The translations under genes and the position numbers were made by a program. A DNA stretch of 48,787 nt from Hydrotalea sp. (GTDB lineage: Bacteria > Pseudomonadota > Alphaproteobacteria > JASGCL01). Positions 4,701-30,397 of the stretch are shown one piece after another. The stretch's first letter is position 1. Every line of letters starts with the position of its first letter. The stretch covers positions 1 through 48,787 of the forward strand of contig JASGCL010000001.1 of assembly GCA_030054115.1 (NCBI GenBank). Reading direction: 5' to 3'. Under the pieces are notes generated by a model, which ran no database searches, was not told the origin of the DNA, and saw only the letters and a program-made list of their open reading frames with translations.

Positions 4701-4902
4701 TGCATTCTCCTGCTATTATATATGATAGCGCACAATCGCTATTGCGCACGGCATTGCCCCGGTTTTTTTTTAGCAAATCAAGCCCGGCAAAGCAAAAACA
4801 TTCGGCGGTGATTGCTAAAAAGATAAGGGAAAGACGTTGCAAAAAGTAATAAATCAACCTAAGGCGTATTGCAGATAATAATTAAGGAGGGAGTTGTTAT
4901 CC

Positions 4903-6579
4903 ATGACTCAGTTGCATTTTAGGGGCAAAGAGTTTGTTTATAACCATCATTTGTCTGTTCCTTATTCGGAATTGAAACCTGATGCAAAAAAATCTGTCAT
5001 CACAAAGGGTGGGCAACCACGGCTTGACGACAATTTAATAATTCACGGCGATAATTTACGCGCGCTAAAGGCGTTGTTGCCAAGGTATGAAGGCCGCGTG
5101 AATTGCATTTACATCGACCCGCCCTATAACACGGGGAACGAGGGCTGGAGTTACAACGATAATGTGAACATGCCATATCTGAAAGATTGGCTAAGCAATA
5201 ACCCGGTTAATAACGAAGACATGGAACGGCACGAAAAATGGTGTTGCATGATGTGGCCGCGCCTTACCCTGCTTCACCAATTATTGGCCGATGATGGCGC
5301 AATATTTATTTCCATCGACGATAACGAAGTGCATCATTTACGCATGATGATGGATGAAATTTTTGGTGAGGGGAATTTTGTAGAGTTGATTGCCATTGCT
5401 AGCAATCCTAGAGGCAGAGATTATGGCGGTATAGCAAAAATGCACGATTATGTTCTTGTTTATAAAAAAACACAAAATGCTATATTAAATAATTTACCCG
5501 AACCTGATAAAACTTTTCCTTTTAAAGATGAAGATGGAGATTTTGAAACTAGAGAATTAAGGAATAGAAATATAGCTTTTAATATAAATAATCGTCCGAA
5601 TTTATATTATCCATTTTATATCAATCCTAATTCGCATGATAAAAACAATTTATACAAAATAAGCCTTGAGGCCAAAAAAGGATGGGTTGAAATTTTTCCT
5701 AAAGAATCGCAGGGAATTAAAACGGTTTGGAGATGGGGAATAGAAAAATCTAGTAGGTTTATAAATAAAGAAATTGTTGGTAAAAAAATGAAAGAAGAAG
5801 GTCAATGGCAAATTGTAGAAAAGTATAGAGAAAAAAGTAAGATGGCTCGTTCAATTTGGAGTGATAAGGAAGTTAATAATGAAAAGGGAACACTTTTATT
5901 AAAAGATATTTTTAATAAAAAAATCTTTGACTTTCCTAAACCCGCACAGATGATAAAAAATATAATTCAAATTGCAACCAATAAAAATTCCATCATCCTC
6001 GACTCCTTTGCTGGGTCGGGCACCACCGCCCATGCTGTGTTGGCATTGAATAAGGAAAATGGCGGCGACCGCAAATTTATTTTAATCGAATGCGAAGATT
6101 ACGCCGACAACATAACCGCCGAACGGGTGCGCCGCGTGATAAAGGGCGTGCCCACCGCCAAAAATGAAGAAATAAAAAATGGCTTGGGCGGCGAATTTAC
6201 ATTTTGCGAATTAAGCAATCCGATAGATTTTGATAGCTTGCTGGCCGGCAAAGATTTGCCGTCATATAAAGAATTTGCCGGGCTGGTTTGGAATTTGTTT
6301 GCGGCGACTGCCTTTGACGAAAAACAATGCAATGAAAAAGAATTTATTATCGGTGAAAAAGACGGCGAATTGGTTTTTTGTTTTTATAAACCCAATAAAA
6401 ATTTTTTGTTGTCGCATGAATCCTGCCTTAACACCAATCGCATGGAAGAATTAAGCGCACAGCATCCATCAACCAATATCATGATTTATGCCCCAGCATG
6501 TTTTGTGCCGAACGACATGTTAAAAAAACATAATATAAGATTCGCCCCATTACCATTTGCATTGTTTAAATTGGGGTAA
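4903..6579 (+). CDS. mod: Type III restriction-modification methyltransferase (Mod)
   Basis: An N6-adenine DNA methyltransferase of 558 residues. The DPPY catalytic motif (residues 72-75) comes before the SAM-binding FAGSG motif (about 369-373), which is the beta-class order of type III Mod subunits. Start ATG 4903 is preferred over a TTG at 4894 because AAGGAGG/GGGAG at 4884-4893 then has usable spacing. The part between the two motifs, the target-recognition domain, is strongly AT-rich (about 5390-5990), whereas both flanks have the codon use of the surrounding chromosome. This mosaic suggests exchange of the recognition domain. The res gene starts 5 bases after the stop, so the pair forms an operon that both protects host DNA and guides cleavage. 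Confidence 0.95.
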   Translation: MTQLHFRGKEFVYNHHLSVPYSELKPDAKKSVITKGGQPRLDDNLIIHGDNLRALKALLPRYEGRVNCIYIDPPYNTGNEGWSYNDNVNMPYLKDWLSNNPVNNEDMERHEKWCCMMWPRLTLLHQLLADDGAIFISIDDNEVHHLRMMMDEIFGEGNFVELIAIASNPRGRDYGGIAKMHDYVLVYKKTQNAILNNLPEPDKTFPFKDEDGDFETRELRNRNIAFNINNRPNLYYPFYINPNSHDKNNLYKISLEAKKGWVEIFPKESQGIKTVWRWGIEKSSRFINKEIVGKKMKEEGQWQIVEKYREKSKMARSIWSDKEVNNEKGTLLLKDIFNKKIFDFPKPAQMIKNIIQIATNKNSIILDSFAGSGTTAHAVLALNKENGGDRKFILIECEDYADNITAERVRRVIKGVPTAKNEEIKNGLGGEFTFCELSNPIDFDSLLAGKDLPSYKEFAGLVWNLFAATAFDEKQCNEKEFIIGEKDGELVFCFYKPNKNFLLSHESCLNTNRMEELSAQHPSTNIMIYAPACFVPNDMLKKHNIRFAPLPFALFKLG

Positions 6580-6584
6580 CCGCC

Positions 6585-9143
6585 ATGTTTGAACATTTTG
6601 AATTAAAAGAATATCAAACAAATGCCCTTAATTTGTTTGAACATTATTTGGAAAAATTGGCAACTACCCGCGTTGATTATTTGGAACAGCAGGAGAAATT
6701 GGCAAAGGCTGGTGTCAAGGCGACGCTGGACCATGATTGGACCGAAAAAGCATTTAGAGAGGTTTGCAATGAAAAATTCACCGCGCGCAAGGACGCGTTT
6801 GGTTTATCCATACCCGCGGTTTGTTATAAAGTGCCGACCGGTGGCGGCAAGACATTGCTGGCGACCCTGTCGGTGATTAAAATTTTTTACCATTATATCA
6901 ATCAACAAAATGGTTTTGTTTTGTGGATAGTGCCGAACGAAGCAATCTACAGCCAAACATTAAAAACATTAAAAGATAACGAACACCCCTATCGCAAATT
7001 TTTAAACCCAGCGTTCCGTGGCAAGGTTAGAATTTTAACCAAGGAAGATAGAATAACCAGACAAATGGTAGATGAAAATTTGTGCATCATGGTGATGATG
7101 TTGCAATCAAGCAATCGCGAAACGAAAGAAACTTTAAAAGTTTTCAAGGCGCGGGGTGATTATCATGGATTCTTCCCGCTTGAAAGCGATTATCAGGCCA
7201 ACAAATCGTTGTTAGAAAAAATACCAAACTTAGATATTCATGGTAGCAATTTTATACCGATAATCAAAAATTCATTGGGTAATATGTTGCGCATGATAAG
7301 GCCGGTTATCGTGATGGACGAACAGCATAAGGCAACATCTATCAAGGCGACAAAAACATTGGAAACATTTAACCCAAAATTTATTTTGGAATTATCCGCC
7401 ACGCCCCAAGATTATAAATTTGAAAACGGCGCGACGCAATCGCCAAATGAATTGGTTAAAATCACCGGTAGCCAATTATTGCGCGAGGGCATGATTAAAA
7501 TTCCTATCAATGTTAAAGTGAGCAACGATGAGAAATGGCAAGATATTTTACGGCAATCGCTTGATAAATTAAATGATTTGGCAGAAAAATCGAAACAACA
7601 TTTTGCCGATACCAGTCGGATTATCCGACCAATAATGTTGGTGCAGGTCGAGCGCACCGGTGCAGACCAACGCGATGGCAAAGTGATTCATGCCGAGGAT
7701 GCGAAAGAACAGCTATTGAAATTGGGATTAAAAGAGAACGAAATTAAAATAAAATCTGCCAATAATAATGAATTGGAAAACATCGACCTGTTGGCGGCGA
7801 ATTGCGCGGTGCGTGCCATCATTACAAAATCGGCATTGCAGGAAGGGTGGGATTGCCCATTTGCCTATATTTTGGTTAGTTTATCATCGAGCAAAAGCCT
7901 GACCGCCATTACGCAATTATTGGGGCGGGTGTTGCGCCAACCCCATGCGACAAAATCAAAAGTTGAAGAATTAAATCAAAGTTATGTTTTTTGCTTACAT
8001 AAAGAAACCAACGACCTTATCAAAAAAATAAAATCATCGCTGGAAAATGAGGGGCTGGGTGATGTTGCCTATCAAATAAATGTAGCGAATGATGATGATA
8101 ATTCGTTGCTGGAATATATTACAATCAAAAGACGCGATAAATTTAAAAATACAAAAATTGTTTTACCAAATGTTGTTTGGACGGGCGATAAAGAACCGCG
8201 TGCATTGCAATATGAATCTGACATTTTAGCATATATCGATTGGCTAAAAATTGACATGCAGGAAATTGCTAATTTTATTTCGCCTTACAATTCGCAAGCT
8301 CAAAATTATACGATTTCTTTTGGTAATGATTTACTTAAGAATGATACGATAGAGGGCAGGTTGAAAGCAGAAGAATTAAAAAAGGATTTTATAATTTCTG
8401 ATGCGGTGCGCGCCATCAATGACATTATTTTGAATCCATGGGTAGGTTATGAATTGGTCAAGAATTTACAAATCGCCTTATTAAAAAAATGGACAAGGGA
8501 ACAAATTGACACGCAATATTTTAATATCATCAAACAATTTAGAACATCACTGATTAAAAAATCTGATGAACAAGCAGAAATATATTTCAAAGAAAATCTA
8601 AAAAATGGAAAAATAACTTTTCATTTGCGAAGTGATGATTTGCTTGGTTGGAGCATGCCCTATGCAATAAAATCTAAAAAAGATGGAAAGTTAATTTTAA
8701 GAAATGATTCTAAGCCGGTGCAAAATAGTTTGTTCGACAATCCAATTTTTGATGATGGGTTTAATGATGCTGAAGAAGCCGTTGCCGTTATGTTAGATGA
8801 GCAAGTTAACTGGTGGTTTAGAAATTGCGTTGAAGATGGGCATTATCATTTGCAAGGGTGGCGAAAGGAACGAGTCTATCCTGATTTTATATTTTTTCTT
8901 AATAGCGCAAGAAATGAAATTTGTGTGTGGGAAGGCAAGGGTAATCATTTGGCAGGAAATGAAGATACGGAGTATAAGACAAAACTTATGGAAATGGTTA
9001 GCACCAATTTTTCTTTTGAGAGAGTATCATCAATAGGAAAGCTTGATATTGATAGCAGTAACGGCAATAAAGTTTCTTGTAAGATGGTTCTTTATAGCAA
9101 TTTTGAAAAAACACTAAATAATTACGCGCCATCGCCTCTATAA
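6585..9143 (+). CDS. res: Type III restriction endonuclease subunit (Res)
   Basis: An SF2 helicase-nuclease of 852 residues that cleaves DNA when in complex with Mod. Helicase motifs are clear: Walker A PTGGGKT at 84-90, motif II DEQH at 245-248, motif III SATP at 271-274, and motif VI QLLGRVLRQP from 444. The C-terminal PD-(D/E)xK nuclease site reads PD at 766-767 and E-G-K at 783-785. All catalytic residues appear intact, so the enzyme should be active. The last third is more AT-rich than the first two thirds. It has the usual family length and is cotranscribed with mod. Confidence 0.95.
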   Translation: MFEHFELKEYQTNALNLFEHYLEKLATTRVDYLEQQEKLAKAGVKATLDHDWTEKAFREVCNEKFTARKDAFGLSIPAVCYKVPTGGGKTLLATLSVIKIFYHYINQQNGFVLWIVPNEAIYSQTLKTLKDNEHPYRKFLNPAFRGKVRILTKEDRITRQMVDENLCIMVMMLQSSNRETKETLKVFKARGDYHGFFPLESDYQANKSLLEKIPNLDIHGSNFIPIIKNSLGNMLRMIRPVIVMDEQHKATSIKATKTLETFNPKFILELSATPQDYKFENGATQSPNELVKITGSQLLREGMIKIPINVKVSNDEKWQDILRQSLDKLNDLAEKSKQHFADTSRIIRPIMLVQVERTGADQRDGKVIHAEDAKEQLLKLGLKENEIKIKSANNNELENIDLLAANCAVRAIITKSALQEGWDCPFAYILVSLSSSKSLTAITQLLGRVLRQPHATKSKVEELNQSYVFCLHKETNDLIKKIKSSLENEGLGDVAYQINVANDDDNSLLEYITIKRRDKFKNTKIVLPNVVWTGDKEPRALQYESDILAYIDWLKIDMQEIANFISPYNSQAQNYTISFGNDLLKNDTIEGRLKAEELKKDFIISDAVRAINDIILNPWVGYELVKNLQIALLKKWTREQIDTQYFNIIKQFRTSLIKKSDEQAEIYFKENLKNGKITFHLRSDDLLGWSMPYAIKSKKDGKLILRNDSKPVQNSLFDNPIFDDGFNDAEEAVAVMLDEQVNWWFRNCVEDGHYHLQGWRKERVYPDFIFFLNSARNEICVWEGKGNHLAGNEDTEYKTKLMEMVSTNFSFERVSSIGKLDIDSSNGNKVSCKMVLYSNFEKTLNNYAPSPL

Positions 9144-13415: not shown

Positions 13416-14177
13416 TCAGGCTTGATTGGCCTTGCCTGCCGCCTTGCCGACTGCGTTGCCAGCCAGATTGCTGGCGCGGTTGACCGCCAGGCAGAATTTT
13501 TTTATTTTGGCCGGCGATTTTTTCCCCAAAGATTCCTCGACGCCGGTGGAAACATCGACCGCGAAAAATTGCGGCGCGAATTGTTGCACCTGGGCCACCG
13601 CCAACCCAACATTATCGGGTGTTAAACCGCCCGCCAAAAAAAACGGCAATGAGGCATTATAATGGGCAAGCAACGACCAATCAAACACCCGCCCCAACCC
13701 GCCATGGCGTGAATCGTGGTTTGCATCGGCGGGCGTTTTTTTATCGCCGGCGGTATTATTATCCAATAGATTTTTATTTGGTTTGGCGTCGAATAAAAAA
13801 TAATCCACCGCCGGGGTATAATCCTCAAGGCGCGCGAAATCATCGGCGGTTGCTATCGGCATGGCCTTGATAATTTTTTTTCCCGTCTGATTTTTAATCG
13901 CGGCGCACAAATCGGCCGGCTCATCACCATGCAATTGCAGGGCATAGGGGTTTAATTCACGGGCGAGGTATGTCGCCTCATCCAGTGCCGGGTTAACCAA
14001 CAACAACACCGATTTTATTTTTTTGCCGGCCACCGCCAGCAAATGGTTGGCGACGTCGATATCAATATGGCGCGGTGATTCCTCGGCCATCACCATGCCA
14101 AAAAAATCGGCACCGGCATCGATGGCGGCACTAAGCCCAGCCTCATCCTTTAATCCGCAAATTTTTATTTTTGTCAT
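13416..14177 (-). CDS. trpF: Phosphoribosylanthranilate isomerase
   Basis: Third step of tryptophan synthesis, a (beta/alpha)8 barrel. Family motifs are KICGL with Cys7, LQLHGDE, FLAGGLTPDNV and DVSTGVEESLGKK. At 253 residues it is longer than usual (about 205-220). The extra length comes from a hydrophilic insertion after DAKPNK and an Ala/Gly/Lys-rich tail of about 22 residues after the last helix. It overlaps pyrF by 4 bases (ATGA), so the two are coupled. trpB and trpA, which often follow trpF, are not here. Confidence 0.94.
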   Translation of the reverse strand: MTKIKICGLKDEAGLSAAIDAGADFFGMVMAEESPRHIDIDVANHLLAVAGKKIKSVLLLVNPALDEATYLARELNPYALQLHGDEPADLCAAIKNQTGKKIIKAMPIATADDFARLEDYTPAVDYFLFDAKPNKNLLDNNTAGDKKTPADANHDSRHGGLGRVFDWSLLAHYNASLPFFLAGGLTPDNVGLAVAQVQQFAPQFFAVDVSTGVEESLGKKSPAKIKKFCLAVNRASNLAGNAVGKAAGKANQA

Positions 14178-16035: not shown

Positions 16036-16839
16036 ATGTCTTTTTTTAAATCATTTCCCAAAACACTTGTTTTTTGGCTGGTGATTATCGCCGCCATCGT
16101 TTGGCTTTTTCCAAAAACCACCGGCTTAAAATTTTCCAACCTCGATTATCGCCGCTCAACCGGCGCAACCCGCCTGGCGGTCGACCCCGCCCAAGCCCCA
16201 TGGAACGCGGTCGGCCGATTGTTGGTGCGCAATAGCAAGGGCAAGGGCGATGCTATATGCACCGCGGTGTTGATTGCGCCGAATAAGATTATTACGGCGC
16301 GCCATTGCTTTATCAACAAAAGCTTCTTCGGCAATAAACCGGTGGCGGCGGGTGATGTTGCCTTTCAATTGGAACGGGGCGGCAAGCTGGAAACCGTGTC
16401 TACCCTGGCGAAAATTTCTTACCCCGATGCTGAATTCCTTGCCAGCCTAAAAGGACAAGGCATGCAAAAAACCGATTACGCCTTCGCCACCCTGACCACG
16501 CCGGTCGACGTAAACAAAATGCGCATCACCCTGCCGGCACTTGCCGCGGCCAGCCCGTCCGCCGGCCAAGCATTATCGCAGGCCGGTTATGGCGTGAACC
16601 GCGAAAAACTTTATGGCGATGTTTGCGCGGTTATCGCCCTCAGCAATTCCATCGTGCAACATAATTGCCTGATTACATTTGGCGACAGCGGCGGGCCAAT
16701 TTTTTATCAACAATCCGGGCAATGGTTTTTGGCCGGCATCAATAGCTATTACGAAGAAATCGGCAGGCTGGTGCAACATGCCTTCGCCGTTGGCCCCGAA
16801 AATTATTATCGGCCGCTACAGGATTTTATCAATCAATAA
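16036..16839 (+). CDS. Membrane-anchored trypsin-like serine protease
   Basis: A 267-residue chymotrypsin-fold (S1) protease. Residues 10-26 form a signal anchor. The catalytic triad can be read as His90 in ITARHC, Asp147 in KTDYAFATL and Ser218 in FGDSGGP. Cys residues near the His (75, 91) and the Ser (197, 211) could make disulfides, consistent with a periplasmic catalytic domain. There is no PDZ domain, so it is not DegP-like. Its end overlaps the convergent ABC permease gene by 11 bases. The substrate is unknown. Confidence 0.9.
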   Translation: MSFFKSFPKTLVFWLVIIAAIVWLFPKTTGLKFSNLDYRRSTGATRLAVDPAQAPWNAVGRLLVRNSKGKGDAICTAVLIAPNKIITARHCFINKSFFGNKPVAAGDVAFQLERGGKLETVSTLAKISYPDAEFLASLKGQGMQKTDYAFATLTTPVDVNKMRITLPALAAASPSAGQALSQAGYGVNREKLYGDVCAVIALSNSIVQHNCLITFGDSGGPIFYQQSGQWFLAGINSYYEEIGRLVQHAFAVGPENYYRPLQDFINQ

Positions 16840-17704
16840 TCGGGTAGAAAAAACGCCGCCAAGATTTTGGCGCGTGGGCGCGGAAATAATCCTTGCGCGA
16901 CAACACAAAAACGAACACCAACAACACCACGCCATATAACACGCCGATGGCGACATTGCCGCAAACCGCCGCCGCCGCCAGCAGGCCCACCACCGCCAAT
17001 AATCGATAGGGCGACCAAGCCGACAAAGCCACCACCACCAGCAACAACCAACCAAGGCCGCTGTTGCTGACCACATCACCGCTGCCCCCCGCCTGGCCCA
17101 TGACGCTGGGGCTGTGGTGAACCATCACCGACATGCCCATGCCCAGGCCTATCAATGCCATGCCAAGCATGTTGACCAGCAATTGTATTTTTTTTATCGG
17201 GTAAAGCGATTGCAAGGCCTGCGGTTCATCGCCCAGGCCGCGAATAATCATGCCCCATTTCATCCGTTGCAGGAAAAACCCGGAAGCCAATAATAATATC
17301 ATCACCATGTAGGGGGCGGCGTAATGCAAGGCAAAGGGCAAATCGTCGCTACCACTGGCCGATGGCTGGTTACCGGCATTGTTAATAACCCGTTGTATCG
17401 CCAGACCGATAAAAAAAACCGCTAGGCCAGATAACACCCAATTGATTTTTATAATAAGCGACAATAAAAAATACAAACCGCCCAACAACATCGCCAACAA
17501 CATCGCCACCACCAAACCAAAAATTATATTGTCGCCATGCAATAAAAAATAATAAACCACCGCGTTGGTCGATAATATCACCCCCTCGACCCCCCATTGC
17601 AATAACCCGACGCGCTGGCACAACAACAGGCCTAGACCCATCAGCCACAGCGGCATCGCCATCGCGATAATGTTCGACCAAAGCAAAAATGCTTGCTCTA
17701 TCAT
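16829..17704 (-). CDS. ABC transporter permease, BMP/nucleoside type (NupQ-like)
   Basis: A 291-residue polytopic protein with about eight hydrophobic segments. The segment LLQWGVEGVILSTNAV resembles the NLGVEGMM-type motif of permeases from BmpA-dependent nucleoside importers. It overlaps the preceding permease gene by 4 bases and is the last gene of the transporter operon. The C-terminus overlaps the convergent protease gene. Its partner ATPase looks catalytically degenerate, so active import is in doubt. Confidence 0.82.
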   Translation of the reverse strand: MIEQAFLLWSNIIAMAMPLWLMGLGLLLCQRVGLLQWGVEGVILSTNAVVYYFLLHGDNIIFGLVVAMLLAMLLGGLYFLLSLIIKINWVLSGLAVFFIGLAIQRVINNAGNQPSASGSDDLPFALHYAAPYMVMILLLASGFFLQRMKWGMIIRGLGDEPQALQSLYPIKKIQLLVNMLGMALIGLGMGMSVMVHHSPSVMGQAGGSGDVVSNSGLGWLLLVVVALSAWSPYRLLAVVGLLAAAAVCGNVAIGVLYGVVLLVFVFVLSRKDYFRAHAPKSWRRFFYPIID

Positions 17705-18828
17705 TTTAATTTCCTTTTCTTTGCCATCGCCTTGGTCGCATCGGGCGACAGGCTTTCTTGCCGCGCGCGTTGCAACATATCGGCCATGTCGATTTCGTAA
17801 TGATATAAAAAATCAATCAACAGCAATAACAAAAATGCCAAGCAACAGAATATCTCAAAAAAACCTTGGTCGAATATCGCTATACCAAGGTTTTTCAGCG
17901 TCGCCACCACCAGCCCAAGCAACAGGCTAATCGCCACCACCCCCAGCGGCGTCATGCGGCCAAGGTAAACCACAATCACCGCCCCCATGGTTAAGACCCA
18001 CAGCGGCGGCAGGAGGTTATCGCCGCCGGCCTGCAACCCATCCCAATTGTCGAGCAAGGCAACCGCGCCGCCGATACCGACCAATCCGCCACCAACCAAC
18101 ATAATAAACCAATAGATCTTTTTTTCCTGTTGACCGGTTTCGACCATCGCGTGGCGGCCATAACCCATCAATTTTAATTGGAAAAAAATAATATGGTAAC
18201 GATGCAACAACATCGCCATAACCCCCACCATCAACGCGTAGAAAAAACCATAATGAAAAATACCAAAAAATACATCTGGCAATAACATATTAATGGCCGT
18301 CAAGGAATCGTCCAGTGGTTGGTTAGGGTCAATCAATTTTGCCGCCGGCGCGAACAACCACCGCGCCGCAATCACCATAATCGCCGAGCTCAAAATCTCA
18401 TGCAGGCCGGTTTGACGCCGCAACAGGCCAATCACCAACGCTATCGCCGAACCACCCACCGCTGACGCCAATATTATCGCCGGCAACAACCAAGCATGCG
18501 GATAGTCGATAGTGTTTTCAATCACGCCAATCGCCATAATCATGCCGCCGACAAATTGCGCCTCGGCCCCCAAATGATAAATACCGGCGCGAAAAGCCAT
18601 GACAATCGCCAAGCCGCAAAATATAAATGGTGTGGCGGCGGTCAGCAACAACAGCAAATTTTCTTTATCGGTAAAAACCTGGGCCAGGGCGACAGCCGCC
18701 TGGCCAAAGCCGATTTGCCACAAGTCCAGCAAGGCAAAAAACAACAACAGGGCAAGGCCGCAGGCAACCACAACCGGCAACCATTGGCGATCCTTCGACA
18801 GGTGATGTTTTTCAATAACGCTTATCAT
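17701..18828 (-). CDS. ABC transporter permease, BMP/nucleoside type (NupP-like)
   Basis: A 375-residue inner-membrane protein with roughly nine to ten helices. The segment GIYHLGAEAQFVGGMI is the hallmark loop (IGAEGQ-like) of BMP-type sugar and nucleoside permeases and would contact the ATPase. It forms a heteromer with the next permease, which overlaps by 4 bases. It starts 3 bases after the ATPase gene. No BMP-family binding lipoprotein is encoded nearby, so specificity cannot be inferred beyond the family. Confidence 0.85.
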   Translation of the reverse strand: MISVIEKHHLSKDRQWLPVVVACGLALLLFFALLDLWQIGFGQAAVALAQVFTDKENLLLLLTAATPFIFCGLAIVMAFRAGIYHLGAEAQFVGGMIMAIGVIENTIDYPHAWLLPAIILASAVGGSAIALVIGLLRRQTGLHEILSSAIMVIAARWLFAPAAKLIDPNQPLDDSLTAINMLLPDVFFGIFHYGFFYALMVGVMAMLLHRYHIIFFQLKLMGYGRHAMVETGQQEKKIYWFIMLVGGGLVGIGGAVALLDNWDGLQAGGDNLLPPLWVLTMGAVIVVYLGRMTPLGVVAISLLLGLVVATLKNLGIAIFDQGFFEIFCCLAFLLLLLIDFLYHYEIDMADMLQRARQESLSPDATKAMAKKRKLK

Positions 18829-18831
18829 GGC

Positions 18832-20598
18832 TTACACCAAGGCGCCCCCCTTCGCCGATTTTTTTGACCTGTTCGCCGCGCCGGTGTTATCCACCTGCGC
18901 CGCGTAACCCACCATCAGGGATTCGATAAAATCCTTGCTTTGCTCCTTCACTTGGTATGGTGGCGATAATAAACCGTTGGCCAAGACATACACCGTATCG
19001 CAAACCGAAAAAATCTCCTCGACATCTTGCGACATGATAATTACCCCGCCGCCTTTTTCCACCAAATCATTGACCAGGCGATGGGTAAAAAGCACCGTGC
19101 CGCGATCGCCACCGACGTAGGGTTCGTAAAGAATAAATGTTTCGGGAATGAGACTCAGTTCGCGCCCGAGGACGAATTTGTGCAGGTCGCTTTGTGATAA
19201 TTCACGAAGCAATTGATGTTGCGGGTGAATCGGCAGGTCGTATTTTTTAATGATATTGTCGGCGATGCCACGAATATAGGTTTTATTGATAATGCCGAAT
19301 TGCTGCCCCTGCGACCGCGCCGCCATAAGGTTCAACACATTGTCAAACACATCCAAATCCTTAATAACCGCCTGTTGCCGCCAATTTTTGGCAACAAAGC
19401 CGATGTGTTTTTTACGCCGCGCCACCACGTCTTTATCGCCAATTGGTTCGACGCCGTGCCATTTTATCATCGCCGGCGCGACCGCAACATCGCCGCGCAG
19501 GGTAGAAAATAATTCATCGCCGCCATTGTGCGGCAGGCCGACGATGCCCATCACCTCCCCGGCGTGCAGGGTGAAATTAATATTCGAAAGGTCGGTGCCA
19601 TGCGCCCCGTGGTAATTTAACCCGTCGACCACCAGCAATTTTTTTTGTGAGTCGATGTAGCTGATGCCGCGCAGTTCTTTTTTTCCATCGTTCAAAATAT
19701 CGACGATTTGTTTTTTGTTTTTTTTCTTCGGGTCAAAATCCATCACCCAACGGCCTTGCTTTATCAGCGTGACCTCATCGGCAATTTTTAAGCCCTCGTC
19801 GATAAAATCGGTGCTGTATAAAATAGCGATCGATTGTTTTTGCCATTGCTTCAGCAGGCGATAAAACTTGCCCTTGCCGTATGATATAATTTGGTTATCA
19901 ACATTGCCAATCAACATAAGGCTAGGGTTGTTAAACAAACAACGCACGATGTTGGCTTCGAAACGCTCGTTGCTTGTCAATTCGCTGACCGGAATATTGG
20001 TGAAAAAATGAAAACCATAAATCGCCATGATGCTGTTGACGCGAAGCAAAATATCGTGCCGTTTGCGATTCAGCGGCAGGTGATAAATTATCGCGATATT
20101 TTCGATAAAGGTTGCGTTGGGCAATAACCCTGGCCCGTTATCCAGCAGGGCAACGTGGTCAAGAACCCTATGGGTTGGTGCGCTGGCCGTTGCCCCAGCC
20201 GTCGTCTTAGCGTCAATTGGTGATTTGGCGGATTTCCCCGCCGATTTTATATTAGCAGTCTGGGGTGGTGCTTTACCGCCCATTTCCATCAACTTGCCCG
20301 ATATGGTTTGCATGGTGTTTTGCACCATATGTTTGGCCGAATCCTTGGCGCGGGATAGGCCTTCGACCAGGCGGGGCGTTGCGCCGTCGAGGCTGGTATC
20401 TTTATTCTGCCAATAAATTGCCCCGCCATCGAATGGGATTTTGCCCGCCAAAATATGAAGCAAGGCGGTGCGGCTGAAGCCAGTATCGCCAAGCAACACA
20501 TGGCATTCGCCGGCGTGAACCGTCATGCTGACCGCCGACAATACCCGCCGATAGCCAAAAAATTTATTAATTTTTTCTAATCGCAATAGCTCCGCCAT
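18832..20598 (-). CDS. Tandem ABC ATPase with degenerate catalytic motifs
   Basis: 588 residues with two ABC domains (about 5-285 and 320-565), the layout of RbsA/NupO-type ATPases. In the first domain the Walker A is G-D-T-G-F-S-R-T (37-44) with Arg in place of Lys, the signature reads LTSNE, Walker B ends LMLIGN without Asp-Glu, and the H-loop has Asp for His (264). In the second, Walker A is GLPHNGGDE, the signature LSQSD and Walker B FILYEP. In normal members the first domain keeps its Walker motifs and the second its LSGG signature. A disordered Lys/Ala/Ser-rich insert of about 65 residues (78-142) lies before the Q-loop region. The frame is intact, so the gene seems kept under selection despite losing ATPase residues. 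Confidence 0.85.
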   Translation of the reverse strand: MAELLRLEKINKFFGYRRVLSAVSMTVHAGECHVLLGDTGFSRTALLHILAGKIPFDGGAIYWQNKDTSLDGATPRLVEGLSRAKDSAKHMVQNTMQTISGKLMEMGGKAPPQTANIKSAGKSAKSPIDAKTTAGATASAPTHRVLDHVALLDNGPGLLPNATFIENIAIIYHLPLNRKRHDILLRVNSIMAIYGFHFFTNIPVSELTSNERFEANIVRCLFNNPSLMLIGNVDNQIISYGKGKFYRLLKQWQKQSIAILYSTDFIDEGLKIADEVTLIKQGRWVMDFDPKKKNKKQIVDILNDGKKELRGISYIDSQKKLLVVDGLNYHGAHGTDLSNINFTLHAGEVMGIVGLPHNGGDELFSTLRGDVAVAPAMIKWHGVEPIGDKDVVARRKKHIGFVAKNWRQQAVIKDLDVFDNVLNLMAARSQGQQFGIINKTYIRGIADNIIKKYDLPIHPQHQLLRELSQSDLHKFVLGRELSLIPETFILYEPYVGGDRGTVLFTHRLVNDLVEKGGGVIIMSQDVEEIFSVCDTVYVLANGLLSPPYQVKEQSKDFIESLMVGYAAQVDNTGAANRSKKSAKGGALV

Positions 20599-20695: not shown

Positions 20696-21349
20696 TTATC
20701 CTCTGGCGTCTTTTTCTTCCTCGGTGTTCCTAACCTGGTTGATAAAGTAGCGCAAAATATCCTTGCTGGCGATAGTTTGCCGTGGGGTTTGACCTGGGGT
20801 GATGGTTACTCGTTGCGCCTTTTCTATCATTTTGGTTTTTAAACCATTTTCATTATCCGTCATCTGGGGTTCGCGCTCCAACTTTGGATAATTTACTATG
20901 CCATCGCCATTAAGATTAGTACTGTCTTCTAATTTTTTTGCCAGGGTCATGACCTCGACCAAAATAGCAAGAAAATCAAAAGACAATTTATCACACAGGT
21001 CGCTCATTGTATCGAGAGTCAGGGAGCTTTTACCCGCCATGGTGCGACTCCAGGTTGGTTGGCTGACGCCAACCGTGCGCAATACCAATTGGAATTTTTG
21101 CCTGATAGCTTTGCCGTTTTGACCCGGGGGCGATTTCTGCAAAAGCCTTTGCGTTACCACCTGGCCAAAAATTTGCGACAGAGTGAAGGACACCACCGCG
21201 GGTTCGATAAATAACGCGCGATGTGGTATAGGCGACTCATCGCGATTGGTGCTATCATATAAGTTATCCCCTAAATTGTCCCGTGTTTGGTCCCAAGATG
21301 CGTCCCGCGCTTCATCCCGGCCCGTAAATGCCACGTCATGGTTTTTCAT
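20696..21349 (-). CDS. XRE-like helix-turn-helix protein
   Basis: 217 residues. A helix-turn-helix can be read around residues 82-130, with VSQPTWSRTMAG followed by LTLDTMSDLCDKL, the order seen in Cro/C1-type domains. The flanks are hydrophilic and probably disordered: an Asp/Arg/Asn-rich N-terminus and a charged tail ending in EEEKDARG. It is divergent from hemW, and a palindrome with a central ATTATAAT lies 72 bases before its start, a candidate autoregulatory operator. Its target is unknown; the nearby ABC transporter operon on the same strand is one possibility. Confidence 0.65.
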   Translation of the reverse strand: MKNHDVAFTGRDEARDASWDQTRDNLGDNLYDSTNRDESPIPHRALFIEPAVVSFTLSQIFGQVVTQRLLQKSPPGQNGKAIRQKFQLVLRTVGVSQPTWSRTMAGKSSLTLDTMSDLCDKLSFDFLAILVEVMTLAKKLEDSTNLNGDGIVNYPKLEREPQMTDNENGLKTKMIEKAQRVTITPGQTPRQTIASKDILRYFINQVRNTEEEKDARG

Positions 21350-21536: not shown

Positions 21537-22742
21537 ATGAAAAAGAAATTTTTTGCCCTTTACATCCACTGGCCCTATTGCCTGCGGCGTTGCCCCTATT
21601 GCGATTTTAACGCCCATGTGGCGGCGGATAGCGGCCGTAACCAGGTTATGGCCAATGGCTTGTTGCGTCAATTGCAATCTTACCGCCGCCATGAAAAACT
21701 TGGAGGTTACTTCGCGGGCAAAAAAATCAGCAGTGTATTTTTCGGCGGCGGCACGCCATCGCTGATGCCACCCCATCTGGTCGAGGAATTACTAACCACC
21801 GCCAAAAATCTATATGGCTTTACCGACGATATCGAAATCACGTTGGAGGCCAACCCCGGCACGCTGGAGGGGGCAAGCATCTTAAAAGATTTCAAATCGG
21901 CCGGCGTCAATCGCCTGTCGATGGGGGTGCAATCGCTTTACGATGATGCCTTGCAACGATTGGGGCGGATTCACAATGCGGCGGAGGCAATAAAAATTAT
22001 CGAAACCCTGCCGTCGATATTTGACCGTTGGTCGTTCGATTTAATTTACAGCCGCCCGGGCCAAACCATGGCGGCGTGGTTGGGGGAGTTGGAATTGGCC
22101 CTATCCTTTGCGCCATCGCATCTATCGCTTTATCAATTGACCATCGAACCCGGCACCGATTTTTTTCGCCAAGCCAAGGAAAAAAAACTCATCATGCCGC
22201 CCGATGATTTATCGGCCGAGATGTTTGTTACAACCCGCGATGTCATGGCCGCCAATGGTTTGCCCAGTTACGAAATTTCAAACTTCGCACGCGTAAATCA
22301 AGCATCGCGCCACAACCTTACCTATTGGCATTATGGCGATTGGTTGGCGGTGGGGCCCGGCGGAGAGGGCAGGTTAACCCTGCCCCAACCAGATGAGCAA
22401 AATAACGGCGGCAATAATACCCACCAGCAAAAATTTGCGACCAAAAATTTTCGCCTGCCCGATAAATGGGCGACGCAAGTTGTAACCGACAACATCGGCA
22501 TCGAATCCTTCACCGCGATAGAGCCGGCCGACGCGGTGGTGGAAAAAATAATGATGGGCCTGCGGCTGACCGATGGCATTTCTTTGCCGTCTGACCCGCC
22601 AGAAACCTTACCCGAAAACTTCGACCAAAAATGGCAAGATTTGGTCGATGATAATTTGGCCGTTCCCGCCGCCAATCACCATTACCGCCTGACCGAGGGT
22701 GGTTTATTACGCCTAAACAGCGTTATCAATTACTTGACATAA
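21537..22742 (+). CDS. hemW: Radical SAM protein HemW
   Basis: A heme-binding radical SAM protein related to the oxygen-independent coproporphyrinogen oxidase HemN. 401 residues. The cluster motif C-x3-C-x2-C is at Cys15, Cys19 and Cys22 (YCLRRCPYCDF), followed by FFGGGTPSL, LEANPGT and GVNRLSMGVQS. The Cys immediately after CPYCDF that HemN enzymes have is absent (NAH follows), which favours HemW. A low-complexity Asn/Gly-rich stretch lies around residues 286-300. The stop codon lies within the promoter of the following SRP RNA. Confidence 0.95.
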   Translation: MKKKFFALYIHWPYCLRRCPYCDFNAHVAADSGRNQVMANGLLRQLQSYRRHEKLGGYFAGKKISSVFFGGGTPSLMPPHLVEELLTTAKNLYGFTDDIEITLEANPGTLEGASILKDFKSAGVNRLSMGVQSLYDDALQRLGRIHNAAEAIKIIETLPSIFDRWSFDLIYSRPGQTMAAWLGELELALSFAPSHLSLYQLTIEPGTDFFRQAKEKKLIMPPDDLSAEMFVTTRDVMAANGLPSYEISNFARVNQASRHNLTYWHYGDWLAVGPGGEGRLTLPQPDEQNNGGNNTHQQKFATKNFRLPDKWATQVVTDNIGIESFTAIEPADAVVEKIMMGLRLTDGISLPSDPPETLPENFDQKWQDLVDDNLAVPAANHHYRLTEGGLLRLNSVINYLT

Positions 22743-25024: not shown

Positions 25025-25687
25025 ATGGCAACCAAGGAACATAGATTATTTGAATTGTTGGCAAAACAATTATCGCGCCTGCCCGGCCTTGGCCCGCGGT
25101 CGGCGCGGCGCGCCCTCCTCCATTTGTTAAATAACCGCGAGGAAGAATTAAGCCCGCTCATCATCAATTTACAAATGGCCTATGACCAGGTTATTAAATG
25201 CCAAGAATGCGGCGCGTTGGATTTTGTCAACCCCTGCATGACCTGCACCGACCCGGCGCGCGACCAAACAAAAATTTGCGTCGTCGAACAAATGAGCGAC
25301 CTGTGGGCTATCGAACGGAGCGGGATTTACAAAGGCCTTTACCACGTGCTGGGTGGCGTCTTATCACCGCTCGACGGCGTGATGCCCGACAACCTGAACC
25401 TGGCGTCATTATTGCCGCGCTGTCGCGACAAAAAAATTGCCGAGGTCATCCTCGCCACCAACATCACGCTCGACGGCCAAACCACCGCGCACTATATTGC
25501 CGAAAATTTGGAACAGCTCGCCCTCGCCCCCAATGTTAATGGCGATGGCGACGAAAACACCGATGGTAATAAAAACGGCCTGACCATCACCCGCGTCGCC
25601 CACGGCGTGCCGGCGGGTGGCGAACTTGATTACATGGACGAGGGAACTTTATTCGCCGCCTTCAAAGCGCGAAAAAAGTTGGATTGA
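25025..25687 (+). CDS. recR: Recombination mediator RecR
   Basis: Works with RecF and RecO to load RecA on gapped DNA. 220 residues. An N-terminal helix-hairpin-helix (LSRLPGLGPRSARRALLHLL), a zinc site C59-x2-C62-x8-C71-x2-C74, then a Toprim domain beginning KICVVEQ and containing GLYHVLGG. An Asp/Asn/Gly-rich insertion (NVNGDGDENTDGNKNG) interrupts the Toprim domain before ITRVAHGVPAGGELDYMD and makes the protein longer than the usual 200. The last 82 bases before the stop are repeated 130 bases downstream. Confidence 0.96.
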   Translation: MATKEHRLFELLAKQLSRLPGLGPRSARRALLHLLNNREEELSPLIINLQMAYDQVIKCQECGALDFVNPCMTCTDPARDQTKICVVEQMSDLWAIERSGIYKGLYHVLGGVLSPLDGVMPDNLNLASLLPRCRDKKIAEVILATNITLDGQTTAHYIAENLEQLALAPNVNGDGDENTDGNKNGLTITRVAHGVPAGGELDYMDEGTLFAAFKARKKLD

Positions 25688-25847: not shown

Positions 25848-27902
25848 CTACCCCCGCCGCCGCCGTGTGCGGCCACCGCCGCTGGGCGATGCGTCGCCGC
25901 CGGTGCCGGTGGTCATTTTGCGCGGCGGTAATTGCACCGCACCGGCCAGGGCGGGGAAATCATCCACCGAATTGGGTATGCCCATTGCGTTGACAAAATA
26001 TTCTTGGAATTTCGGTTCGATGGCGGTTTCGATTTTTTCCACGCGGCGCACCACCTGTTCAATTTCATGCCGTTTGGCTTGGTTGACCAAGGCAATGCGC
26101 GCGCCGGTGCCGGCGGCATTGCCGACGCCGTTTATTTTGTCCAACGCACAATTGGGAATCATGCCCAATATCAAGGCGTATTTCGGTTCGATATGCGTGC
26201 CAAACGCGCCGGCCAATGCAATGCGGTCGGGGTTTTTTCCCAATTTATCCATCAACAATTTGCAACCGGCGTAAAGCGCGGCCTTGGCCAATTGAATGGC
26301 GCGAATGTCGCCCTGGGTTACCTTAATTTCCGGTTCGTTGTTTTCTGGGTTGCCATGGTGCAAAATATAACTGAATGTCCGGCCGTCGGCGATGATGCGC
26401 GGGTTGCGCGCCGCCATGGCACCATCAATCACGCCGTCGGTGCCGACAATACCGGCCAGCATCATTTCGGCAATGACCTCGATAATGCCACTGCCGCAAA
26501 TGCCGGTCGGGGCAATGTCGTCTTTGGCGTTGTTATCGTCCTTGGGGAAGCCTGGCTCGTCCGACCATTTTTCGCAACCGATAATTCTGAATTTTGGTTC
26601 CAGTGTTTCGCGGTCAATTCGCACCCGTTCAATCGCGCCCGACGCCGCCCGTTGGCCAGACGAAATCTGTGCCCCCTCCAACGCCGGGCCGGTCGGGCTG
26701 GAACATGCCAACAACCGCTCGCGGTTACCCAAAACAATTTCGGCGTTGGTGCCAACATCAACCAATAACGAAATTTCGTCTCGGTTATATGGCTCCTCCG
26801 CCAATATCACCGCCGCCGAATCCGCCCCCACGTGGCCGGCAATACATGGCAGAACATATAATTCCGCAGACGGGTGCAGGGCAAAACCAACATCGCGCGC
26901 CGGCATGGTGATGGCGTGGTTTGTGGCCAATGCAAATGGTGCCCAACCCAATTCGGTCGGGTTGATGCCCAAAAATAAATGGTGCATCACCGGGTTGCCC
27001 ACCACCGTCACCGCAACCACCATTTGCGGGTCAAGGTTAATTTCTTTGCACGCACGCACCGCCAGGTCGTTCAGGGCGAATCGCACCGCCTCGGTCATTT
27101 CTTTTTCGCCACCCTTGTTCATCATGACATACGAAACGCGGCTCATTAAATCTTCGCCGAAACGGATTTGCGGGTTCATGGCCCCGACCGACGACACGAC
27201 ATCGGCCGTTAACAAATTGGTCAAGTGCAACGACATGGTGGTTGACCCCAAATCTATCGCCAGGCCGTAAATCGTGGCGACGTCGCCCGCCCACAAACCG
27301 GCGACCTCCACCCCATTGCGCACCATGGCGGTTACCGACCATTTGCCCTTGCGCAATTCTTCCTGAATGCTGGGCAAGATATGCGGGTTGATGTGTAATT
27401 TTTCTTCGGTGAAACCATGTTGTTCGCACAATGCCGTTATCACCCGTTCGCTGTCGCCCGATGGTTTGTGCATGTCGGGTTCGGTTACATTGATGGCGTA
27501 TAATTTTACATTGGGGTCGGTGGCAATGGCGCGTTTGTCGACCGCCTTACGAATTACTTGGCGGTGGATTTGGCTGTCCTCGGGGATGTCAATCACCATG
27601 TCGCCCTGGAGCGTGCAATTGCACCCCAGGCGGCGTTCGGGTTTTAGGCCTTTTTTATTTTTGTAACGTGCCTCGACATCGTTAAATGGAGACAGGTTAT
27701 TTTCGCCGGCCTCTATCGCGAATTTTGGGAAACTGCCAAAACCGGGTTCGACTTGGCATCGGCCACAAATGCCGCGCCCGCCGCACACCGAATCCAAATC
27801 GACGCCCAAACCGCGCGCCGCCGCCAGAATCGACGTGCCGACCGGGAATTCGCCACGCTTCCCCGATGGCGTAAAAACAATTTTGGCTTTGCTGTCGGAC
27901 AT
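25848..27902 (-). CDS. RACo-like corrinoid-protein activator (2Fe-2S plus ASKHA/DUF4445)
   Basis: 684 residues. The N-terminal plant-type 2Fe-2S ferredoxin domain has C40-x5-C46-x2-C49 and a fourth Cys at 94 or 96. A linker leads to an ASKHA ATPase fold starting at GLAIDLGSTT (about 213-222), with LLVDVGTNAEIVLG and a later LAGAFGTHI. This is the layout of RACo enzymes, which use ATP to reduce inactive Co(II) corrinoid proteins to Co(I). A methyltetrahydrofolate:corrinoid methyltransferase gene lies upstream on the same strand and fits that role. The C-terminus is a Gly/Arg-rich tail ending RRRRG, like that of the methyltransferase. AAAGGAG, the probable ribosome site, lies inside the end of the preceding gene. 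Confidence 0.9.
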   Translation of the reverse strand: MSDSKAKIVFTPSGKRGEFPVGTSILAAARGLGVDLDSVCGGRGICGRCQVEPGFGSFPKFAIEAGENNLSPFNDVEARYKNKKGLKPERRLGCNCTLQGDMVIDIPEDSQIHRQVIRKAVDKRAIATDPNVKLYAINVTEPDMHKPSGDSERVITALCEQHGFTEEKLHINPHILPSIQEELRKGKWSVTAMVRNGVEVAGLWAGDVATIYGLAIDLGSTTMSLHLTNLLTADVVSSVGAMNPQIRFGEDLMSRVSYVMMNKGGEKEMTEAVRFALNDLAVRACKEINLDPQMVVAVTVVGNPVMHHLFLGINPTELGWAPFALATNHAITMPARDVGFALHPSAELYVLPCIAGHVGADSAAVILAEEPYNRDEISLLVDVGTNAEIVLGNRERLLACSSPTGPALEGAQISSGQRAASGAIERVRIDRETLEPKFRIIGCEKWSDEPGFPKDDNNAKDDIAPTGICGSGIIEVIAEMMLAGIVGTDGVIDGAMAARNPRIIADGRTFSYILHHGNPENNEPEIKVTQGDIRAIQLAKAALYAGCKLLMDKLGKNPDRIALAGAFGTHIEPKYALILGMIPNCALDKINGVGNAAGTGARIALVNQAKRHEIEQVVRRVEKIETAIEPKFQEYFVNAMGIPNSVDDFPALAGAVQLPPRKMTTGTGGDASPSGGGRTRRRRG

Positions 27903-27905
27903 TTA

Positions 27906-29210
27906 TTATAACGCTCCTTTTTCCTTTTTTATTTGTTTTTCAAATTCTTTTATCTGATTAAAAACTTCTTCAATATCATCGGTCGCAACCCATTCATAAA
28001 GAGATTGATAATGGTTATGAATCATTGTTTCGATTTCGATATTAAATGGTGTTTGATAAGCTTTCTCTAATGTAAAACCTCGCTTCGGATCGCTGGTTTG
28101 ATAATTGTTTAAGCGCGCTTTAGGATCTTTTGCAACGCCAACCTTTAATTGGCCTTTATAAGCTTTATTAGAAATAATGTAAATATAACCTGCAATCGCA
28201 CCACCTGCACCACCATCGGTTCTTTTTGGCGGCGCGGTGCTATCGTGGATTTCTTTATTCCAATCCATAATTGTATGTTTTTCTTTGTTTAACCGTTCCT
28301 TTACCAACTCATAGGCTTTATAACTAACATCAATGCCAACCCAGCGGCGACCCAACCGTTCAGCCGCCACACAAGCGGTAGCGCAACCACAAAACGGGTC
28401 AAGCACCATATCACCTTCATTGCTACTAGCCTTAATAATCCTTTCCAACAAAATAAGAGGCTTTTGCGTTGGATAACCCGTGCGCTCTTTCGCCGTTGAG
28501 CCAATGGGTGGAATCTCCCACCAATCGCCTGTTTTAACACCTCGGCTTTCATCTTCAAGAAAAACTTTATACCTATTTCCCTTGACAGTATGCCATCGCC
28601 ATCTCTTGCCGGTTTCTTCGTCTGTATAACCATAATCTTTTTTTATCCACTCGCCGTAGGGATCGTATTGTGTATTAAAAACAGGAGCATCTGACTTAGC
28701 ATAATATAAAATAATATCATGTAGCTTTTGGAATTTGTTTGCTACCGCCGTCCAGCGTTTATAAGCCCAAATAACCTCATTTCTAAAATTCTTTTCACCG
28801 AAAATACAATCCAGCACCAATTTTAAATAATGGCTCATCGTTGGATCGCAATGTAAATAAACACTGCCCGTTTCTTTTAACACGCGATGAATTTCTATCA
28901 ATCGAATGGCCATATAAACACAATAGCAATAATTATATTTATTGCTGAATTCTTTTATACCCAGCAATAAAGAATAAAGCTGATAATTCTCGGCCTCGAT
29001 TTCTTTAACCCACTCATCCTTAACATCTTCCTCGCTAAAAATATCTCGGAACTCAGCACCTTCAGCACTACTTCCTATCGGCGCGGTAAAAATTTTCTTT
29101 TTATTAAAAGGCGGGTCAAGATAAACTAAATCTATGCAATTTGAATTAATGCCACGCAATATATCGATATTATCATGACAAAAAACAGTGCGATTTTTTA
29201 CATTCAACAT
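27906..29210 (-). CDS. DNA adenine methyltransferase fused to a GIY-YIG-like domain
   Basis: 434 residues from ATG 29210, chosen because AGGA lies about 10 bases before it; a TTG at 29228 is less likely. Residues 1-325 are a beta-class methyltransferase: DPPF at 32-35 precedes DPFCGCAT at 271-278, with TGYPTQKP between them as in known N6-adenine or N4-cytosine enzymes. From 341 onward, GYIYIISN, LKVGVAKDPKARL and a later FNIEIETMIHNHY resemble GIY-YIG nucleases of the T5orf172/Mug113 type, with Arg366 and a downstream Glu in suitable places. It is strongly AT-rich and lies between two genes of a corrinoid operon, so it looks recently acquired. The stop is 3 bases before the RACo-like start. 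Confidence 0.88.
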   Translation of the reverse strand: MLNVKNRTVFCHDNIDILRGINSNCIDLVYLDPPFNKKKIFTAPIGSSAEGAEFRDIFSEEDVKDEWVKEIEAENYQLYSLLLGIKEFSNKYNYCYCVYMAIRLIEIHRVLKETGSVYLHCDPTMSHYLKLVLDCIFGEKNFRNEVIWAYKRWTAVANKFQKLHDIILYYAKSDAPVFNTQYDPYGEWIKKDYGYTDEETGKRWRWHTVKGNRYKVFLEDESRGVKTGDWWEIPPIGSTAKERTGYPTQKPLILLERIIKASSNEGDMVLDPFCGCATACVAAERLGRRWVGIDVSYKAYELVKERLNKEKHTIMDWNKEIHDSTAPPKRTDGGAGGAIAGYIYIISNKAYKGQLKVGVAKDPKARLNNYQTSDPKRGFTLEKAYQTPFNIEIETMIHNHYQSLYEWVATDDIEEVFNQIKEFEKQIKKEKGAL

Positions 29211-29284
29211 AATTTGGATTCCTAGCAACTTTCGCCATTATATAAAAGGAATTTTTATAAGTCATGCAACGAAGCGCAGAAACA

Positions 29285-29476
29285 TTATTTAAACAGCGAC
29301 CAAAAACTAACGGTGGTGCGTTTGTAAATCTTGTTATAAATATACCTCTTAGGATTGGTAACCCAACCATAACCGCGGGGCATTTTTAAACCCGCGCGAT
29401 TAACAATTTGTCTTTTTATCGACATCCGCGCCGCCAACATTTTGCGCGGCGATGGTTTTCTAATACCGAATTTCAT
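29285..29476 (-). CDS. 63-residue basic protein, unknown function
   Basis: The sequence starts MKFGIRKPSPRKMLAARMS and ends with PKRYIYNKIYKRTT and a short hydrophobic tail. It is very rich in Lys and Arg. From memory, similar short proteins with an initial KFGIRxPSxxK motif and a final NPKxxxYNKxYxxTT motif occur in Firmicutes and phages; I could not check this. It starts 21 bases after mtgA on the same strand and is followed by the methyltransferase-GIY-YIG gene, so it may be part of the same insertion. Function unknown. Confidence 0.65.
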   Translation of the reverse strand: MKFGIRKPSPRKMLAARMSIKRQIVNRAGLKMPRGYGWVTNPKRYIYNKIYKRTTVSFWSLFK

Positions 29477-29497
29477 TTTTTAACAAATCCCCCTCTA

Positions 29498-30397
29498 CTA
29501 CCCCCGCCGTCTGCGACTGCGGTCACTGCGGCCACCCTCGCTACCGGCCACGGGTGGTTCGCGGAATTTGGTAATCCACGCCGCGCAATTTAAATCGGTG
29601 CCGGCGATAACATCGGCCGACGCAATGCCGAGCATTTCCTCGGGGTGCAATGGATTCATAATGGCCGACGTCATGCCCGCGCCAATCGCCATCGACAAAA
29701 ATGTCGCGTTCAGCGCATGGCGGTTCGGCAGGCCAAAGCTGATGTTCGACGCGCCGCAAGATGTATTGACCTTTAATTCCTCGCGCAGGCGACGGATGAG
29801 CTTCATCGCCGCTTGCCCCGCCTGGCCCAATGCACCAATCGGCATGACCAGCGGGTCGATAAGCACGTCAGACGCCGGAATGCCAAAATCCATGGCGCGG
29901 TGGACGATTTTTTTTGCAACCTCGAACCGCACGTCGGGGTTTTCGGAAATGCCGGTTTCGTCGTTCGAAATACCAATCACCGCGCAATTGTATTTTTTCA
30001 CCAATGGCAAGACGACCTCCAATCGTTCTTCCTCGCCCGTTACCGAATTTAACAACGCCTTACCCTTATAAACCGATAGGCCACGTTCCAACGCCGCCAC
30101 AATGGAGGAATCGATAGCAAGCGGCAGGTCGGTCATTTCTTGGACCAATTGAATCGTTTTTGCCAAAATCGCCGGTTCATCGGCCAACGGAATACCGGCA
30201 TTGATGTCGAGCATATGCGCGCCGGCCGCAACCTGGGCTTCGACGTCCCTTATCACGGTTTCGAAATTGCCTTCCTTCATCTCGGCGGCCAATTTTTTGC
30301 GCCCGGTGGGGTTAATGCGCTCGCCGATAACGACGAATGGCACGTCAAAACCAATGGTGATTTTTTTCCGGTCGGAGCTGATGATGGTATTGGTCAT
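29498..30397 (-). CDS. mtgA: Methyltetrahydrofolate:corrinoid methyltransferase
   Basis: 299 residues forming a pterin-binding TIM barrel of the dihydropteroate synthase/AcsE type. Motifs: VVIGERINPTGRKKLA near the start, AHMLDINAGIPLADE, LAIDSS, LLNSVTGEEER, NTSCGASNISFGLPNR and NPLHPE. Such enzymes move the methyl group between methyltetrahydrofolate and a corrinoid protein, for example in glycine betaine or methylamine demethylation. The RACo-like gene downstream would keep the corrinoid partner active, but the corrinoid protein itself and any MttB-type methyltransferase are not in this window. The C-terminal SEGGRSDRSRRRRG tail lies beyond the barrel and resembles that of the RACo-like protein. 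The gene symbol is by analogy. Confidence 0.88.
   Translation of the reverse strand: MTNTIISSDRKKITIGFDVPFVVIGERINPTGRKKLAAEMKEGNFETVIRDVEAQVAAGAHMLDINAGIPLADEPAILAKTIQLVQEMTDLPLAIDSSIVAALERGLSVYKGKALLNSVTGEEERLEVVLPLVKKYNCAVIGISNDETGISENPDVRFEVAKKIVHRAMDFGIPASDVLIDPLVMPIGALGQAGQAAMKLIRRLREELKVNTSCGASNISFGLPNRHALNATFLSMAIGAGMTSAIMNPLHPEEMLGIASADVIAGTDLNCAAWITKFREPPVAGSEGGRSDRSRRRRG

Follow-up and report, generated by a model that had tools for sequence, protein, structure and literature searches.

ABC transporters are defined by their use of ATP, and the presence of one degenerate site is common among them. The NupO/RbsA type already has one; both RbsA and NupO of B. subtilis carry one degenerate site each in a published analysis (PMC11466899). 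The closest described systems to the locus reported here are the NupNOPQ-type (BMP) nucleoside importers, which share with it a fused tandem NBD protein, two different PF02653 permeases and the order of the genes. Alphaproteobacterial operons of this type run ATPase-permease-permease-BMP, and some of them adjoin xanthine dehydrogenase genes. Fused tandem NBDs are likewise found in the RbsA/CUT2 sugar ABC ATPases (RbsA, AraG, XylG, MglA). ABC proteins that are not pumps are also known, as CFTR is a channel and SUR is a channel regulator.

Layout and family assignment of the three-gene unit

The window (the whole stretch of DNA that was analysed, 48,787 nucleotides) encodes a three-gene unit at 16829-20598 on the minus strand in the order ATPase-permease 1-permease 2. 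The features of the unit and its surroundings are as follows.

18832-20598, minus strand: tandem ABC ATPase, 588 aa, of NupO/BMP-type fold with the catalytic residues gone from both domains (open reading frame and PF00005)
17701-18828, minus strand: permease 1, 375 aa, PF02653, with 46 of 105 conserved columns retained
16829-17704, minus strand: permease 2, 291 aa, PF02653, with 31 of 90 conserved columns retained
20696-21349, minus strand: possible upstream operon partner, 217 aa, its stop 97 nt before the ATPase start
20170-20352, minus strand: A/K/S/T-rich insert of 61 residues (ATPase residues 83-143, by alignment), absent from relatives

The ATPase frame, predicted to be intact, indeed runs from ATG to stop (20598 down to 18832) with 0 internal stops. 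Its stop lies 3 nt from the start of permease 1, and permeases 1 and 2 overlap by 4 nt. In relatives the BMP binding protein adjoins permease 2; this spot is occupied here by a gene for a trypsin-like secreted serine protease (assigned by motifs; 16036-16839), which converges on the end of the operon and overlaps permease 2 by 11 nt.

PF00005 matches the ATPase in two stretches and PF02653 matches both permeases. The program hhalign pairs the ATPase with 11 intact relatives across 492 columns (27% identity, probability of 100%), and by this comparison it is a tandem NBD protein of the NupO/RbsA kind. The presence of two different permeases points to the NupO (BMP) branch, and the unit appears to descend from a BMP/NupO-type importer composed of a tandem NBD protein and two different permeases. 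RbsA/CUT2 profiles score at most 135 bits, lower than the 162 bits of the ATPase model of the 'putative B6' ABC transporter, itself a BMP-type system, whose models (NF047928-NF047930) are the top NCBIfam models for all three proteins. The scores nonetheless fall far under the curated equivalog cut-offs (162 against 670, 63 against 400 and 18.6 against 465 bits), so that the unit is not assigned to that equivalog.

Two hallmarks of a BMP/NupO-type importer are thus in place, namely two NBDs fused in one chain and two different PF02653 permeases beside the ATPase in the expected order. In contrast, the one competent composite ATP site, intact in relatives, is lacking, as is a PF02608 binding protein. 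Relative to the NupNOPQ-type systems, whose ATPases are about 24-30% and permease 1 proteins about 26-33% identical to the window proteins, the unit is without a catalytic site and a BMP binding protein, retains less than half of the conserved permease columns and carries the 61-residue insert. It differs from the RbsA/CUT2 ATPases, which have one degenerate site (PMC11466899), in that both sites are gone and in having a different permease pair.

ATP-site motifs of the tandem ATPase

The ATPase was aligned with 26 relatives from the same class, and motif columns were counted where they are conserved in at least 90% of the relatives, with the motif set defined by us. The first domain of these relatives carries GENGAGKST (Walker A), the Gln of the Q-loop, LSVGEQQR, DEPTSVLT and ISH, while the second domain carries G.AGNGQ, LSGGNLQK and QPTWGVD (HPTWGVD also occurs). 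Across the family, Walker A/B of the first domain and LSGG of the second together make up the one competent composite site, the other composite site being degenerate throughout. The corresponding positions of the window ATPase, all on the minus strand, read as follows.

20464-20490, minus strand: first-domain Walker A, residues 37-45, GDTGFSRTA in place of GENGAGKST
19957-19980, minus strand: first-domain signature, residues 207-214, LTSNERFE in place of LSVGEQQR
19885-19908, minus strand: first-domain Walker B/D-loop, residues 231-238, GNVDNQII in place of DEPTSVLT
19807-19815, minus strand: first-domain H-loop, residues 262-264, STD in place of ISH
19513-19539, minus strand: second-domain Walker A-like stretch, residues 354-362, GLPHNGGDE; the Lys is also absent across the family (G.AGNGQ)
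19177-19200, minus strand: second-domain signature, residues 467-474, LSQSDLHK in place of LSGGNLQK
19105-19137, minus strand: second-domain Walker B-like stretch, residues 488-498, FILYEPYVGGD, where relatives have QPTWGVD or HPTWGVD

The Walker A Lys is replaced by R43 (codon CGC at 20470-20472), the Q-loop Gln by D147, the Walker B Asp-Glu by G231-N232 (LMLIGN) and the H-loop His by D264. In total, 19 of the 22 first-domain motif columns are changed and 3 are retained. The replacements call for no fewer than 31 base changes, of which Lys to Arg43 alone accounts for three, and are explained neither by sequencing errors nor by a recent point mutation. A recent knock-out was likewise rejected, as the motif changes are too many. 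The first-domain losses (R43, LMLIGN without Asp-Glu, no LSGG and no H-loop His) and the LSQSD in place of the usual signature in the second domain had been read from the sequence in the original prediction, and the alignment bears them out. The family comparison made there also holds, as relatives keep first-domain Walker A, B and H motifs and second-domain LSGGN, and PMC11466899 agrees on the degenerate sites. With the competent site lost on both of its faces here and the second site degenerate family-wide, both composite sites look incapable of ATP hydrolysis.

A sequencing, assembly or binning artefact was considered as one alternative. The genome is a 91-contig draft, but the gene is surrounded by ordinary genes within a 152-kb contig, and its many coordinated multi-base changes occur without a frameshift and with a composition like that of its neighbours. 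The multi-base changes and ordinary composition led us to reject an artefact, the chance of which we regard as negligible. An unusual ATP-using transporter also has to be considered, in which Arg43 and other residues bind or hydrolyse ATP weakly, or which works with a binding protein from another family. The P-loop retains G37 and G40 together with a basic residue, E492 is found in the second-domain Walker B, and a binding protein of some other family may be encoded at a remote site. However, the protein has lost the Lys of Walker A, the Asp-Glu of Walker B, the Q-loop and H-loop residues and the LSGG on the opposite face all together, with no alternative catalytic set visible, making this explanation improbable.

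Within the set of relatives covered, the double loss is confined to this lineage. A wider clade sharing the loss of ATPase motifs was not found, as intact motifs are present, where read, in all 26 ATPases of the alignment and in 28 of the 29 additional operons. Among the 29 loci retrieved through permease 1, an adjacent LSGGN was recovered by pattern in 25 and by alignment in 3 more, while the last (G232) has the permeases and the BMP protein with no ATPase beside the permeases within a 13-kb stretch. The best matches in 385 genomes of the class and 399 genomes of the phylum are about 30% identical, and no near relatives were detected among the genome contigs searched with the ATPase and with permease 1. 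Viral contigs gave 0 matches to an alignment headed by the window ATPase and one partial match to the alignment of intact relatives, and the plasmid search returned matches only to relatives at about 24% identity.

Constraint, divergence and missing partners

The pattern of loss within the ATPase is uneven. Outside the first-domain motifs, 26 of 51 other conserved columns are retained compared with 3 of 22 within them (Fisher p=0.004, a value that is indicative only as the motif set was chosen by us and the relatives share ancestry), and the second-domain motif columns (9 of 19 retained) are no different from the rest of the ATPase. Faster loss of the first-domain motifs is expected if the fold stayed constrained after catalysis was given up, whereas a drifting gene would lose both kinds of column alike, and the unevenness thus argues against drift. 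Nonsense changes make up about 5% of the amino-acid-altering single-base changes available in the three genes, so that 1254 codons drifting as fast as the motifs (about 2 replacements per site) would be expected to have taken on about 125 nonsense changes, compared with 0 observed. The GC content of the ATPase at codon positions 1, 2 and 3 (0.54, 0.35 and 0.59) is like that of the adjacent HemW, DnaX and PyrF genes. There is no stop or frameshift in the three genes, and neither a disrupted frame nor a lost coding signal marks them as pseudogenes.

The divergence extends to the permeases, for which retention was counted on a leave-one-out basis over columns conserved in 28-29 relatives. Permease 1 retains 44% of these columns and permease 2 retains 34%, compared with at least 85% for each relative, and the ATPase overall retains 41% of its conserved columns. 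HemW, a control from the same window, retains 87 of 97 (90%), indicating that the divergence of the permeases is not general to the genome. The permeases still have hydrophobic segments and some of the core motifs (EIL.S, LGR, GVEG). By these counts the whole complex is remodelled and not the ATPase alone, and the original description of both permeases as well formed holds for their intact frames and hydrophobicity, but not for their conserved residues.

A partner is also missing. No binding protein is found next to the unit, as had been noted originally, and PF02608 (the BMP binding protein) gave 0 matches in the genome, which is 95.5% complete, whereas the same search was positive in 6 of 14 control genomes. 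This absence and the loss of conserved residues across the complex speak for a decaying relic that lost its binding protein and is drifting to a pseudogene with a stop not yet gained. However, the at least 31 motif base changes indicate an old loss and yet all 1254 codons are stop-free, the codon-position composition is normal and the gene spacing tight, and a larger share of the conserved columns survives outside the first-domain motifs than within them. A relic is thus an unlikely explanation, and neutral decay is judged unlikely from the open frames, the codon-position composition, the 3-nt gap and 4-nt overlap maintained over 1254 codons and the uneven motif loss. The relatives proved intact, the circumstance in which relaxed selection had been suggested as a challenge to the original prediction, but relaxed selection alone does not fit with 0 stops in 1254 codons, normal composition and uneven loss.

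The permeases might instead be energised by another ATPase such as LivF or LivG, with the tandem protein as a regulatory or vestigial subunit. Intact single-domain ABC ATPases do exist in the genome, including those of a Liv operon with PF02653 permeases, and in 13 other ABC ATPases readable by script Walker A and B are intact in every case and the signature in 12, the exception being a LivG-like protein. However, the only PF02653 proteins in the genome are the two window permeases and a LivHM pair that has its own LivG/LivF and binding protein, so that the Liv ATPases adjoin their own permeases. No second, stand-alone NupO-type ATPase was found in the genome (the next-best match spans 88 residues, E=1.6e-9), which lends no support to the possibility raised earlier that another ATPase gene serves these permeases, and the coupling of the three genes favours the tandem protein as their partner. 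We therefore consider service by another ATPase quite improbable.

Possible roles of the complex

We favour, as the likelier account overall, that the unit has been kept as a non-hydrolytic membrane complex derived from a BMP/NupO-type importer, and the complex is probably put to an ATP-free use, its role being inferred. When both Walker A motifs of P-glycoprotein are mutated, the protein loses catalytic activity and stays in a single conformation (PMC4846820), and by analogy the complex described here should not cycle. With hydrolysis lost at both sites it could not cycle as a pump, and the NBD pair would act as a structural base holding the permease pair in one state, such that the complex would then be a passive conduit or a locked ligand-binding sensor or receptor. 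CFTR and SUR offer a general precedent for an ABC complex turned channel or sensor, but both remain under ATP regulation with one or more nucleotide-binding sites retained, and common descent at the subfamily level is not implied.

Choosing among channel, sensor and scaffold goes beyond sequence alone, and the unit is described from one genome. As a tentative first preference we suggest a passive conduit, followed at a small distance by a sensor or receptor, which is more doubtful, with some other scaffold ranked third and unlikely. A more far-reaching account, that an importer with both sites dead by evolution became an ATP-independent conduit or ligand sensor whose NBD protein is the base for two remodelled permeases, is similarly put forward as a possibility only. 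The many conserved residues missing from the permeases would also be compatible with weak constraint on the complex. The original proposal of a non-hydrolytic complex survives in its core, the loss of hydrolysis within an intact frame that shows signs of constraint, but not in its assumption of normal permeases, which have diverged as much as the ATPase. A single-sequence AlphaFold model of the ATPase had a mean pLDDT of 30.5 and was not used. The 217-aa upstream protein gave only a very weak helix-turn-helix match (E=0.058); it may form a sensor-regulator pair with the complex, which we regard as a lead and not a finding.

If the unit is maintained with neither site intact, an NBD pair can be retained for structure alone, and the locus would provide a natural test of ABC permeases without ATP. 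It also urges caution, as domain matches alone could mislabel such operons as nucleoside importers.

The insert had been placed at residues 78-142 with a length of 65 residues, and a use of it by the complex had been suggested as a possibility. Its presence is confirmed with the revised boundaries given above, but a special role finds no support, as linkers of this A/K/S/T-rich kind seem to occur in other proteins of the genome. Similar extras include about 50 disordered-looking N-terminal residues in an LptB-like ATPase and a 12-residue loop in HemW. Extra polar N/D/A/T-rich stretches, possibly a genome-wide habit, also appear to be present in several conserved proteins, namely in TrpF and RecR loops (by eye), the HemW loop, the LptB-like N-terminal extension and an adjoining RpoN-like protein (window positions 13416-14177, 21537-22742 and 25025-25687; L071 positions 1273-2196).

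Elsewhere in the window, a DNA methylase (PF01555) and a ResIII/DEAD helicase (PF04851) at 4894-9143 are probably a type III restriction-modification pair and adjoin phosphatidylserine decarboxylase genes. The region 25848-30397 encodes a large ferredoxin/ASKHA-type activator protein (684 aa, assigned by sequence) near a pterin-binding methyltransferase (29498-30397), and a second DNA methylase with a T5orf172 domain (27906-29228) lies between the two.
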